A DNA stretch of 64,000 nucleotides from Cellulomonas sp. PhB143 (lineage in GTDB: Bacteria; Actinomycetota; Actinomycetes; Actinomycetales; Cellulomonadaceae). Positions within the stretch are counted from its first letter, which is position 1; the number at the start of each line of letters is the position of its first letter. Shown piece after piece: positions 15,582 through 19,303 of this stretch. Location: assembly GCF_003752595.1 (NCBI RefSeq), contig NZ_RKIJ01000012.1:1-64000 (forward strand), read 5' to 3'. The notes beneath the pieces were generated by a model. The model was given only the letters and a program-made list of their open reading frames with translations. It made no database searches and was not told where the DNA came from. Position numbers and translations under genes: made by a program.

Positions 15582-15613
15582 GAGGTCAGAGCCTAGACCG
15601 GTCCACCCCGGGT

Positions 15614-15673
15614 GCCGAGCACGTCATCGGTGCCGTTCCCGACGTCGGATCCGCGACGGACGACGTGCTCGGC
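15614..15673. terminator. Palindrome P3 after the MarR gene
   Basis: GCCGAGCACGTC (15614-15625) and GACGTGCTCGGC (15662-15673) pair perfectly over 12 bp, with weaker internal pairing. The left arm continues ATC and GGT, the same order as P1 and P2. It lies between the end of the marR gene and the start of trkH. Confidence 0.65.
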
Positions 15674-15678
15674 GTGAT

Positions 15679-16206
15679 TCATTCCCGGTCGGCCGCCGCC
15701 GGGCACGCGGCGTCGAGCCCCGCGTTCACGGTGTCGGCGATCTCCGCGAGCTCGGCGACCTGCGCGGGGGTCAGGTGCGCGAGCAGGTGGCGGCGGATGG
15801 ACCGGGCCCGGCTGCAGCGGGCCGCGGCGACGGCCGCGCGCCCGGTGGGGGTGAGGACGACGTCGGCTCCCCGGCCGTCGTCGGCGGCCGCCTCGCGCTC
15901 GACGAGCCCGCGGGACTCCATGCGGCGCAGCTGGTGGGACAGTCGGGACTTCTCCCACTCGACGGCGCGGCGGAGGTCGATGGTGCGCCGGCGGCCGCCG
16001 GGCCGGACGTCGAGGGCGGCCAGGACGGCGAGGTCGGCGTCCGAGAGGTCGGCCTCGGCGGCGAGCTCGCGCGCGAGATGCTGGCCGACGCGCATCTGCA
16101 TCCGCTGGTAGGACCTCCAGGCGCGCTCCTCGACGGGGTCGAGCGAGCCGACGTCGGCGGCGGTCGCGGCGGCGCCGGGCTCGGCGCGGGTGGAGGTGGT
16201 GGTCAT
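15679..16206 (-). CDS. MarR family transcriptional regulator
   Basis: 175 residues with a MarR-type winged helix: SDADLAVLAALDV, the recognition-helix region VEWEKSRLSHQLRRMESRGLV, and a wing containing DDGRGADVVLTPTGRAAV. It probably represses the divergent LLM-hemerythrin gene 52 bp away; a 10-bp palindrome lies between them. A TAGGCT element lies 6 nt before the ATG, so the mRNA is probably leaderless. The ligand is unknown. Confidence 0.92.
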   Translation of the reverse strand: MTTTSTRAEPGAAATAADVGSLDPVEERAWRSYQRMQMRVGQHLARELAAEADLSDADLAVLAALDVRPGGRRRTIDLRRAVEWEKSRLSHQLRRMESRGLVEREAAADDGRGADVVLTPTGRAAVAAARCSRARSIRRHLLAHLTPAQVAELAEIADTVNAGLDAACPAAADRE

Positions 16207-16212
16207 CGCGCC

Positions 16213-16218
16213 AGCCTA
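16213..16218 (-). promoter_or_regulatory. -10 element of the leaderless marR promoter
   Basis: TAGGCT on the minus strand, 6 nt before the marR ATG at 16206. Confidence 0.6.
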
Positions 16219-16227
16219 CCGTTTGGT

Positions 16228-16237
16228 TGACGTGTCA
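16228..16237. promoter_or_regulatory. Candidate MarR operator
   Basis: TGACGTGTCA is an inverted repeat (TGAC and GTCA around GT) midway between two divergent leaderless promoters. It is placed to block both. Confidence 0.4.
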
Positions 16238-16245
16238 TCCAGGGA

Positions 16246-16251
16246 TAGTGT
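16246..16251 (+). promoter_or_regulatory. -10 element of the leaderless LLM-hemerythrin promoter
   Basis: TAGTGT, 7 nt before the ATG at 16259; TTGGTT lies 17 bp further upstream as a weak -35. Confidence 0.55.
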
Positions 16252-16258
16252 CCGAACC

Positions 16259-17851
16259 ATGGACTACGGCCACGACCTGCTGTTCGGCAGCTTCCTCACC
16301 CCCGACGCCTCGGCGCCCGAGCGCGTCGTCGGGCTCGGGCAGCTCAGCGACCAGGTCGGGCTGGACCTCGTCACGGTCCAGGACCACCCGTACCAGGCGC
16401 GGTTCCTCGACGCGTGGACGCTGCTGTCGACCATCGCCGCGACGACCGTGAACGTGCGGGTCGCGCTCAACGTCGCCAACCTCCCGCTGCGGCCGCCCGC
16501 GGTGCTCGCCCGGAGCCACGCCGCCCTCGACCTGCTCAGCGGCGGGCGCGTCGAGCTCGGCCTCGGCGGCGGTGCGTTCTGGGACGCGATCGAGGCCAAC
16601 GGCGGCCCGCGCCGCACGCCGGGCGAGACCGTCGCCTCCGTCGAGGAGGCCGTCCGGATCGTCCGGGCCCTCTGGGACGAGGGCGCCACCGGCGCCGTCC
16701 AGGAGCGCGGCGACGTCTACGACGTGCACGGCGCGCACCGTGGCCCCGCCCCGGCGCACGACATGTCGATCTGGGTCGGCGCCGTCGGGCCGCGCATGCA
16801 GCGCCTCGTGGGCCGGCTCGCGGACGGCTGGCTGCCGTCGATGATGTACCTCGGCCCGGAGAAGCTCCCGGAGGCCCACGCCCGCATCGACGAGGCGGCG
16901 CTCGCTGCCGGCCGGGCGCCGTCGGACGTCCGCCGCCTGTACAACGTCGCCGGGCGCTTCACCTCGGGGTCGGGGCGCGGCCTGCTGCAGGGTCCGGCGA
17001 CGGTCTGGGCGGAGCAGCTCGCGGACCTCGCGCTGGGCCAGGGGATCAGCGCGTTCATCATGGCGGGCGACGACCCCGACGTGATCCGTCGGTTCGCCCA
17101 GGAGGTCGCCCCGGCCGTGCGCGAGCAGGTCGAGGCGGAACGACTGACCGGCGGAGCGACGACCAAGGAGGACCCGGCGGCGGTGGCGGAGGCCGACGGG
17201 TCCCGGGGCGTCGAGGACGCGCGCGGGACGGTGAGCGTGCGCGGCGGGTTCACCGTCACCCCCACGCCCGACGACGGGACCCGCCGCAGCGTCGTCCAGG
17301 TCTGGGACGAGTCGACGCGCCCGACGGCGCCCGCCGCACCCGAGGGGCACGAGTACACGGCGCACGAGAACGCGACCGGCCAGCAGCTCGTCGACATCCA
17401 CGACCACCTGCGCGCGGAGCTCGCCCAGGTCGAGGAGCTCATCGGGCAGGTCGAGGCCGGCGCGATCAGCGTCGGCGCGGCGCGCTCGCACATCAGCACG
17501 ATGACGATGCGGCAGAACAGCTGGACGCTCGGCACCTACTGCGAGTCGTACTGCCGGCTCGTCACGACGCACCACACGATCGAGGACCGCAGCATGTTCC
17601 CGAGCCTGCGGCGGTTCGAGCCGCGCCTCGGCCCGGTGGTGGACCGCCTCGAGGAGGAGCACGTCGCGATCCACGACGTGCTCGAGGCGGTCGACCAGGC
17701 GCTCGTCGCGATGGTCGGCGAGGAGGACCAGGCCGCGGGGCTCGCGGGCCTGCGCGCCGCCGTCGACCTGCTCAGCGACACCCTGCTCTCGCACCTGTCC
17801 TACGAGGAGCGCGAGCTGGTGGAGCCGCTGGCCCGCCTCGGCGTCGTCTGA
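16259..17851 (+). CDS. LLM flavin-dependent oxidoreductase fused to a hemerythrin domain
   Basis: 530 residues. The first 300 or so form a luciferase-like TIM barrel (LLM, F420- or FMN-dependent): the DHPYQARFLDAWTLLS start, SGGRVELGLGGGAFW and the WVGAVGPRM region are typical. A linker of about 65 residues leads to a four-helix hemerythrin/HHE domain (about 375-525) with IHDHLR, THHTIEDRSMFP, EEEHVAIHD and LLSHLSYEERE, which supply the His/Glu ligands of a diiron site. A fused oxygen- or NO-sensing/storing site beside a flavin site suggests oxygen- or redox-linked chemistry. A MarR gene is divergent. The substrate is unknown. Confidence 0.93.
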   Translation: MDYGHDLLFGSFLTPDASAPERVVGLGQLSDQVGLDLVTVQDHPYQARFLDAWTLLSTIAATTVNVRVALNVANLPLRPPAVLARSHAALDLLSGGRVELGLGGGAFWDAIEANGGPRRTPGETVASVEEAVRIVRALWDEGATGAVQERGDVYDVHGAHRGPAPAHDMSIWVGAVGPRMQRLVGRLADGWLPSMMYLGPEKLPEAHARIDEAALAAGRAPSDVRRLYNVAGRFTSGSGRGLLQGPATVWAEQLADLALGQGISAFIMAGDDPDVIRRFAQEVAPAVREQVEAERLTGGATTKEDPAAVAEADGSRGVEDARGTVSVRGGFTVTPTPDDGTRRSVVQVWDESTRPTAPAAPEGHEYTAHENATGQQLVDIHDHLRAELAQVEELIGQVEAGAISVGAARSHISTMTMRQNSWTLGTYCESYCRLVTTHHTIEDRSMFPSLRRFEPRLGPVVDRLEEEHVAIHDVLEAVDQALVAMVGEEDQAAGLAGLRAAVDLLSDTLLSHLSYEERELVEPLARLGVV

Positions 17852-17861
17852 CCCCCGCCCC

Positions 17862-17936
17862 GCACCCGCCCGCCCGCCCCGCACCCGCACCCGCCCGCCC
17901 GCCCCGCACCCGCACCCGCCCGCCCGCCCCGCACCC
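17862..17936. repeat. 25-bp tandem repeat, three perfect copies
   Basis: The unit starts GCACCCGCCCGCC and is repeated three times without change directly after the LLM-hemerythrin gene. It abuts palindrome P4. It is noncoding C-rich sequence. Confidence 0.85.
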
Positions 17937-18000
17937 GCCGAGAAGTCGAATTCCGCCCCGAAATCTCGGATTTCTGGGGCGGAATTCGACTTCTCGGCGG
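17935..18000. terminator. Long palindrome P4
   Basis: A 31-nt left arm (17935-17965, starting CCGCCGAGAAGTCGAATTC) pairs with 17969-18000 with a single bulged T; the loop is 3 nt. It lies after the LLM-hemerythrin gene and closely resembles P6 at 36373. Confidence 0.8.
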
Positions 18001-18061
18001 GGCCTCCGCGGGGCCTCCGCGGCACCCCGGCGGCACCCCGGGGGAGCTCCCCGGCGCGGGG

Positions 18062-18067
18062 TAGCGT
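18062..18067 (+). promoter_or_regulatory. -10 element of the leaderless PatB-like gene
   Basis: TAGCGT, 6 nt before the GTG start at 18074. Confidence 0.55.
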
Positions 18068-18073
18068 GGTCGC

Positions 18074-19303
18074 GTGGCCATCGACACCCCTGACGCCCCG
18101 GCGACCGACCTGCACACCCCCCTGGACGAGCTGACCCTCGACGACCTCCGCCGTCGGACGTCCGTCAAGTGGCGCGCGTACGAGCCGGACGTGCTGCCCC
18201 TGTGGGTCGCCGAGATGGACGTGACGATCGCCCCGGCCGTGCAGGAGGCCATCGGCCGGGCCCTGCGCGACGGCGACACCGGCTACGACTTCGGCCCCGC
18301 CTACGCCGAGGCGCTCGCGGCCTTCGCCGAGCAGCGCTGGGGCTGGACCCTCGACGTCGCGCGCACCCGCGCGGTCGCCGACGTCATGGGCGGGCTCACC
18401 GACGTCATCAAGGTCCTCACCGGGCCGGGGGACGCCGTCGTCGTCTCCCCGCCCGTCTACCCGCCCTTCTACGGCTTCCCCGGGAACGAGGGCCGGCGCA
18501 TCGTCGAGGCCCCGCTCGCGGCCGACGGCCGGATCGATCCCGCCACCCTGGAGGCCGCCTTCGCGAGCGCGACCGGCGCCGGGGTGTTCGGGCGCGGCTC
18601 GGGCGCCGGCCGGCGCGCCGTCTACCTGCTGTGCAACCCGCACAACCCGACCGGCGTCGCGCACACTCCGGCGGAGCTGGAGGGCGTCCTCGCGCTCGCG
18701 GCCCGCTACGGCGTGCGGGTGGTCTCGGACGAGATCCACGCCCCGGTCGGCGGCCACCTCGGCACCGACGGCCCCCGGTACACGCCGCTGCTCACCGTCC
18801 CGGGCGCGGACGACGCGTTCGCCGTCCTCTCCGCGTCCAAGGCCTGGAACCTCGCGGGGCTCCGGACGGCCGTGGTCGTCGGCGGCCCGGGCGCGGCCGC
18901 GGACCTCGCGCGCATCCCGGAGGAGGCGAACCACGGCGTCTCGCACCTCGCCGTCATCGCGCACGCCGCGGCCCTGCGCGACGGCGTCGGCTGGCTCGAC
19001 TCGACGCTCGCCGGCATCGCGCGGAACAAGGCCCTCTTCGGCGACCTCGTCGCCCGGCACCTGCCCGACGCCCGGTACGCGCCCGCGGAGGCCACGTACC
19101 TTGGCTGGCTCGACTGCCGGGGGATGCCCGACGACGTCTCGCGCGCCCCGGCGCGCTTCTTCCACGACCGGGCACGGGTGGCCGTCAACGAGGGCGCGGG
19201 GTTCGGCACGGGCGGCGCCGGGTTCGTGCGGGTCAACCTCGCGACGTCCCCGGCGATCCTCACCGAGGCGGTCGAGCGCATGGCGGGAGCCCTGGCCCGC
19301 TAA
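18074..19303 (+). CDS. MalY/PatB-like PLP-dependent C-S lyase (class I/II aminotransferase fold)
   Basis: 409 residues. The N-terminus RRTSVKWRAYEPDVLPLWVAEMD is the hallmark of the MalY/PatB branch (cystathionine beta-lyase, not true aminotransferases). CNPHNPTGVAH and SDEIHAPV bind the PLP ring, and Lys in SASKAWNLAGLR forms the Schiff base. The enzyme cleaves cystathionine or cysteine conjugates to a thiol, pyruvate and ammonia. A sulfur role fits the cystine-type transporter 3.6 kb downstream, though they are not an operon. Confidence 0.93.
   Translation: MAIDTPDAPATDLHTPLDELTLDDLRRRTSVKWRAYEPDVLPLWVAEMDVTIAPAVQEAIGRALRDGDTGYDFGPAYAEALAAFAEQRWGWTLDVARTRAVADVMGGLTDVIKVLTGPGDAVVVSPPVYPPFYGFPGNEGRRIVEAPLAADGRIDPATLEAAFASATGAGVFGRGSGAGRRAVYLLCNPHNPTGVAHTPAELEGVLALAARYGVRVVSDEIHAPVGGHLGTDGPRYTPLLTVPGADDAFAVLSASKAWNLAGLRTAVVVGGPGAAADLARIPEEANHGVSHLAVIAHAAALRDGVGWLDSTLAGIARNKALFGDLVARHLPDARYAPAEATYLGWLDCRGMPDDVSRAPARFFHDRARVAVNEGAGFGTGGAGFVRVNLATSPAILTEAVERMAGALAR

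Follow-up and report, generated by a model that had tools for sequence, protein, structure and literature searches.

Flavodiiron proteins consist of a metallo-β-lactamase diiron domain joined to a flavodoxin. Both of these domains are absent, by Pfam, from the protein considered here, in which a luciferase-like (LLM) barrel and a hemerythrin domain are fused on one chain. The barrel is common to the fusion and to the LLM class oxidoreductases (PF00296; e.g., Mer, Fgd, SfnG and SsuD), a class for which the papers searched gave no member with a hemerythrin domain. In the literature searched, which took in few subscription journals, no published description of an LLM-hemerythrin fusion was found, and in the public plasmid records seen the fusion carries the generic annotation 'LLM class flavin-dependent oxidoreductase'.

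Several described proteins share one half of this architecture. The RIC proteins (YtfE and ScdA) have an HHE site with an equivalent set of four His and two Glu; in YtfE the diiron ligands are H84, H129, E133, H160, H204 and E208, as given in the accessible part of PMC9268430. The fusion differs from RIC in an invariant fifth His, in a CxxxC pair in the second helix, and in having a flavin-type enzyme as partner. Where YtfE begins with a ScdA_N domain and its CC motif, Pfam places the LLM barrel at the N-terminus of the fusion. The mycobacterial hemerythrin-like proteins (HLPs), Rv2633c and Mka HLP, are likewise actinobacterial diiron proteins, and the peroxide and NO chemistry considered below is theirs (PMC8913304, accessible part). 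That paper lists four His, two Glu and a Tyr as ligands in Mka HLP, compared with five conserved His and a fused barrel here.

A related CxxxC hemerythrin module also occurs behind another F420/flavin-type oxidoreductase domain. In four proteins of a genus designated g33 (L132, L133, L134 and L138), a PF04075 F420H2-dependent quinone-reductase domain is fused to such a module, and the order is that of the fusion in all four proteins scanned. In these proteins, unlike the fusion, the N-terminal domain is an unrelated one and there is no His at the position of H472.

For the regulation of the fusion gene the nearest comparison is RosR of Corynebacterium glutamicum, whose operator core is reportedly GTTGAYRYRTCAAC and whose targets are said to be monooxygenase and FMN-reductase genes. 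RosR belongs to the MarR family, its gene is divergent, and H2O2 lowers its DNA binding (PMC5401885, accessible part).

The Fusion Gene and Its Protein

The window, the whole stretch of DNA analyzed, is 64,000 nucleotides long and comes from Cellulomonas sp. PhB143. The fusion is encoded by a single open frame on its forward strand, with ATG at 16259 and the stop codon at 17849-17851. Pfam recognizes PF00296 (Bac_luciferase) at residues 9-228 (E 4.3e-41, 141.7 bits against a cut-off of 27.9) and PF01814 (Hemerythrin) at residues 376-521 (E 5.5e-14, 53.2 bits against a cut-off of 25.3). The fusion protein is the only PF01814 match in the genome. A preliminary description, made from the letters of the sequence, had placed an LLM barrel and a hemerythrin domain on one chain; the single frame and the two domain matches agree with this, and its coordinates, domains, ligands and neighboring gene are all correct. 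The features of the gene are as follows.

16259 to 17851, + strand: LLM-hemerythrin fusion gene, 530 aa (one frame; both domains above Pfam cut-offs; 83 aligned fusions)
16259 to 17158, + strand: LLM (luciferase-like) barrel, residues ~1-300 (Pfam; AlphaFold2 model; match to 8qq8)
17156 to 17257, + strand: linker, variable and probably disordered, residues ~300-333 (pLDDT <50 at 300-327; no conservation in fusion alignments)
17258 to 17338, + strand: conserved N-terminal arm of the hemerythrin domain (PTPDDGxR...WDExxRP), residues 334-360 (pLDDT >90 in the domain-only model; also on the free-standing hemerythrins L101, L104 and L118)
17384 to 17821, + strand: hemerythrin/HHE four-helix diiron domain, residues 376-521 (PF01814; AlphaFold2 pLDDT 90; DcrH-Hr and FBXL5 hemerythrin matches, Z ~12)
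17399 to 17401, + strand: predicted iron ligand H381 (invariant in 83/83 fusions)
17570 to 17572, 17582 to 17584, 17660 to 17662 and 17672 to 17674, + strand: predicted ligands H438, E442, H468 and H472, in that order (invariant in 83/83)
17792 to 17794 and 17804 to 17809, + strand: predicted ligands H512 and E516/E517 (invariant in 83/83)
17540 to 17554, + strand: CxxxC pair C428/C432, 10 and 6 residues ahead of H438 (83/83 fusions; 17/18 distant homologues)

Occurrence and History

The hemerythrin part alone was searched against GTDB species genomes, and the best 80 of 263 relatives were kept. These 80 named loci include 72 in-frame LLM fusions and 3 that are cut by a contig start. Two others (L100 and L107) have LLM sequence upstream in another frame, and three (L101, L104 and L118) have no LLM sequence nearby. 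The hosts are Micromonospora, Kribbella, Actinoplanes, Actinomadura, Nonomuraea, Streptosporangium, Phytoactinopolyspora, Pseudonocardia, Nocardioides, Nakamurella and others, so that the fused relatives span several actinobacterial families. The preliminary description had called for a domain-database search for the LLM-hemerythrin architecture and had considered that relatives might carry the two domains on separate proteins; Pfam finds the architecture, and with 72 of the best 80 named hits fused, fusion is, on these sequence counts, the normal state of this hemerythrin subtype.

Within the same family, 126 of 150 genomes have a match at E 1e-30 or better. At least 11 of the matches listed are full-length, and these 11 proteins all align across both domains; the other listed matches cover mainly the barrel. 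A thinner sample of the phylum gave 22 of 396 genomes matching the hemerythrin profile at E 1e-10, and five LLM fusions among the matched proteins, the window's own included.

In L101, L104 and L118 this hemerythrin subtype stands by itself, PTPDDG arm included, and the flanks examined gave no LLM sequence. In Micromonospora tarensis (L107) the barrel and the hemerythrin domain are in different frames, through either a frameshift or an assembly error.

The alignment of 83 fusions used below is rich in Micromonospora and Kribbella, so its rows are not independent. Left out of it are L107, which is in two frames, the window's own L119, and L009-L012, which are the same loci as the named records L039, L040, L057 and L054. 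Comparison of the LLM domain in 86 fusion and 43 LLM-only rows gave 62 positions conserved in both sets and none conserved in the fusions alone. Because conservation of the LLM domain is the same with and without hemerythrin, the hemerythrin domain looks like an accessory to the barrel, whose chemistry appears to be independent of it.

An LLM tree was built by a quick method with SH-aLRT support only, from 103 of 142 rows, after removal of the L120 row and of those Micromonospora and Kribbella rows that were nearly identical. On this tree the fusion state changes four times, and at least two of the changes are forced by well-supported branches. A single gain followed by losses and a small number of independent gains are both possible histories. 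LLM-only sequences are nested among the fusions, which indicates that the barrel can do without the hemerythrin domain.

The Diiron Site

The predicted ligands form the pattern H381, H438xxxE442, H468xxxH472 and H512xxxE516E517. The preliminary description had reported a complete set of hemerythrin His and Glu ligands, and variable ligands among relatives would have spoken against it; H381, H438, E442, H468, H472, H512, E516 and E517 are each kept in all 83 aligned fusions, and the pattern is therefore not a matter of chance. E387, W422, C428, Y431, C432, H439, D443, E467 and D479 are also invariant. This second group contains the CxxxC pair, invariant in the same 83 proteins, on which the preliminary description did not remark. 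The segment around it (416-430) has pLDDT <50 in the full-length model and ranks with the least confident stretches of the domain. In the alignment of 18 distant relatives (L124-L141), none has a His at the H472 position and 17 retain CxxxC. The fusion clade is thus distinguished by its five His, its terminal Glu and the CxxxC of the second helix.

In O2-carrying hemerythrins the terminal carboxylate is an Asp, five residues after the last His. A fifth His, the counterpart of H472, is also present in these proteins. In all 83 fusions the last ligand motif is instead HxxxEE, and to judge from this motif, with Glu where the O2 carriers have Asp, the diiron site belongs to the HHE type. The preliminary description offered oxygen delivery, peroxide protection or NO sensing coupled to monooxygenation. 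Each of the three may still apply, and plain O2 delivery is the weakest, both because of the Glu in place of Asp and because O2-binding hemerythrins are negligible in number in Actinobacteria, according to the accessible part of a survey (PMC4919030).

The profile of the hemerythrin domain gave no match at E 0.01 among PDB sequences, and Foldseek with the domain gave none below E 0.001. VIA-align returned a Pyrococcus protein, de novo bundles, DcrH-Hr and FBXL5 at Z 11-13, a range in which helical bundles can match through arrangement alone. The PTPDDG segment was considered as a dock between the two domains, an idea that was dropped because the segment belongs to the hemerythrin domain.

Fold and Cofactor of the Barrel

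The AlphaFold2 model of the barrel aligns with methylene-H4MPT reductase (8qq8) at Z 32.7 and rmsd 2.0 over 269 residues; with the PF00296 score (141.7 against 27.9 bits) this fold places the protein in the LLM superfamily. Its nearest solved folds are those of two F420 enzymes, Mer and Fgd, with FMN monooxygenases (SfnG and SsuD among them) only slightly behind; VIA-align Z values are ~28-33 across the four. The full-length model (pTM 0.58) does not fix the placing of the barrel relative to the hemerythrin domain, and segment 300-327 of the linker between them has pLDDT <50.

Genes for F420 synthesis were scored in the 15 fusion genomes that could be searched whole. CofD is above its cut-off in 9 of the 15 and is missing by this measure in 6; in five CofD-less genomes it was also not found in the DNA around CofE. 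CofG, half of the FO synthase, is above cut-off in only 3 (12 are without it) and CofH in 2, while a third genome (Oerskovia flava, G011) has an 847-residue frame that matches both halves, although its CofH score falls short of the cut-off. CofE occurs in 14 of the 15, which tempers the view that fusion hosts lack F420 altogether. The genome of the window has CofD and CofE and no match to CofG or CofH.

The fusion is kept in all 15 hosts while F420 genes are missing from some, so that a need for F420 made by the host is unlikely, and F420 is, on this gene content, unlikely as the universal cofactor of the fusion. FMN is the simpler reading; salvage of F420 or FO would rescue the F420 alternative. 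The patchiness of the pathway is an observation in its own right, since CofD and CofE occur without FO synthase in the genome of the window and CofE without CofD in five others, which hints at salvage of FO or F420, or at decay of the pathway.

The Regulator and Its Site

A MarR-family gene lies divergently beside the fusion gene, with a palindrome in the intergenic region, much as the preliminary description had stated.

15679 to 16206, - strand: divergent MarR-family regulator gene, 175 aa (Pfam MarR_2; orthologues likewise divergently placed in L057 and L114)
16225 to 16240, no strand: operator-like palindrome GGTTGACGTGTCATCC (in the 52-bp intergenic region; type A copies in L057 and L114)

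The product of the gene belongs to the MarR family by its MarR_2 match (38.7 bits against a cut-off of 27). Orthologues with an identical divergent placement occur in Oerskovia flava (L057, 65%) and Micromonospora rosaria (L114, 49%). A BLAST search with this protein had hinted that the regulator was not conserved; this was wrong, as two other MarR types fill the same place. Divergent MarR-family genes stand beside 52 of the 83 fusions, a lower bound in that 4 of the 31 misses (L120-L123) had <600 bases of upstream DNA. They fall into three sequence types, A (n=3: the window, Oerskovia flava and Micromonospora rosaria), B (n=45) and C (n=4); representatives of B and C were confirmed as MarR by Pfam. 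The gene is absent beside the fusion in the two nearest relatives (Paraoerskovia, L039, and Sediminihabitans, L040) and at most Kribbella loci, and the regulator is therefore not obligatory. An opposite-strand MarR-like gene is also found beside the barrel gene at 17 of 19 LLM-only loci inspected in the same family. Among 29 loci from across the phylum (26 without and 3 with hemerythrin), there is a single MarR-like frame nearby, and it is not divergent. The pairing of MarR and LLM genes exists with and without hemerythrin, and is not universal.

The exact sequence GGTTGAYGYRTCAWCC occurs once in the 3.2 Mb genome, at the site between the two genes; for the looser form GGTTGANNNNTCAWCC, ~0.07 matches per strand are expected from base composition. 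Sites like GGTTGAYGYRTCAWCC are present in all type A intergenic regions, one in the window and two each in Oerskovia flava and Micromonospora rosaria. In the Oerskovia flava genome (G011) GGTTGANNNNTCAWCC is found only between the fusion and MarR genes, and three relatives that lack the MarR gene (G060, G044 and G075) do not contain it. Other palindromes, picked out by eye, take the same place beside types B and C: ATGTTCTGTTTGACAGAACAT in L076, and TTCGTGGCACGAA in L060, L091 and L117.

A second operator-like site in the genome of the window, GGTTGATGGGTCAACC, has one mismatch and lies just upstream of a nitroreductase-family gene (L143, G000:C3:422227). It is a near-perfect palindrome with ideal half-sites, and ~0.04 sites of its form, GGTTGANNNNTCAACC, are expected in the genome from composition. 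With a score of 234.4, where the cut-off is 152, the gene matches malonic semialdehyde reductase. The search of the Oerskovia flava genome gave no second site of this kind. The nitroreductase-family gene is a possible second target of the window's MarR protein, and a small flavoenzyme regulon is only suggested. The likeness to RosR is one of arrangement, a divergent MarR gene, together with the motif and targets ascribed to RosR; the two Cys of the window's MarR protein are not kept in all three type A proteins.

No conserved neighbor besides MarR stood out when flanking frames, antisense frames included, were clustered for 22 chosen loci and the window. Neither a sigma-70-like promoter nor a T-tailed terminator was found at 15600-18120. 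Downstream of the fusion gene, at 17940-17995, there is a long hairpin made of GAGAAGTCGAATTCCG and its reverse complement ~40 bases apart (-61 kcal/mol, z -8.9). At ≤1 mismatch the genome contains 28 forward and 35 reverse copies of the arm (control 0), and among 187 loci the arm matches only those of the Cellulomonas sp. PhB143 genome. It looks like a genome-wide family of hairpin repeats.

Possible Functions

The tentative reading preferred here, with a probability of about 0.45, is that of an LLM oxidoreductase, probably FMN-dependent and under the control of a repressor, to which an HHE-type diiron domain that would handle O2, peroxide or NO is flexibly tethered. The MarR protein would repress both genes through the palindrome at 16225-16240 and release it on meeting a small oxidant or aromatic compound. 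The barrel would bind a flavin, probably FMN, and reduce or oxygenate that compound, while the diiron site would react with O2, peroxide or NO that comes with flavin turnover or with nitrosative stress. Its most likely role would be that of a local scavenger, acting like a catalase or peroxidase, or of a redox switch. The CxxxC pair may tune or re-reduce the diiron site. The most economical account makes the domain a tethered accessory for handling O2, peroxide or NO close to the flavin. Mka HLP, a hemerythrin-like protein whose structure is known, acts as an NO peroxidase and is weakly active as a catalase; its four His and Tyr ligand (PMC8913304, accessible part), set against the five conserved His of the fusion, mean that this reactivity is not simply transferable.

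The diiron domain might serve an F420H2-dependent reductase instead, and this hemerythrin subtype would then partner deazaflavin enzymes in general. Mer and Fgd, to which the barrel is structurally closest, are F420 enzymes, the NCBIfam matches listed are mostly to F420 LLM subfamilies, the PF04075-hemerythrin fusions have the same CxxxC in the four proteins scanned, and CofD and CofE occur in 9 and 14 of the 15 fusion hosts. We regard this as unlikely, given that none of the NCBIfam subfamily cut-offs, those of the F420 models included, is reached in the 25 of 31 matches listed (best 113.3 against 166.9 bits) and that CofD is below cut-off or absent in 6 of 15 hosts (in five also around CofE) and CofG in 12. 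It is similarly improbable that the diiron domain turns over nothing itself and acts as a sensor or switch for O2, NO or redox state that gates the barrel allosterically or sterically. Hemerythrin domains are often joined to signalling domains (PMC4919030, accessible part), and the flexible linker of the model and the invariant CxxxC near the diiron site in the sequence would suit such a part; yet the fusion protein has no signalling domain, and the barrel shows no conservation specific to fusions.

Electrons might also pass from reduced flavin on the barrel, perhaps through CxxxC, to a diiron site that reduces NO, peroxide or O2, in an enzyme expressed on demand under MarR repression. This second, independently assembled flavodiiron-type enzyme seems distinctly unlikely to us; if it were real, the fusion would be a hemerythrin-fold counterpart of flavodiiron proteins and flavohemoglobin, and the PF04075-hemerythrin fusions a parallel deazaflavin version. 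Least probable, and very unlikely, is an iron donor or Fe-S repair module of the RIC kind. The ligand pattern does contain the whole YtfE set of four His and two Glu, and a Glu directly precedes a ligand His in both proteins (E467-H468 here, E159-H160 in YtfE; PMC9268430, accessible part), but Pfam finds no ScdA_N domain and the fifth His, H472, is invariant in 83/83 fusions.

Significance

The fusion protein is real, conserved and common to many soil actinobacteria, and has apparently never been studied. What is new and testable about it is the way in which known parts are combined, and not the kind of system: the domains are known, and no description of their pairing was found. If the diiron site is active, the fusion would add a flavin-plus-diiron enzyme to the few that are known, and the enzyme with its repressor and operator would be a small, ready-made system for probing hemerythrin domains beside flavin enzymes.
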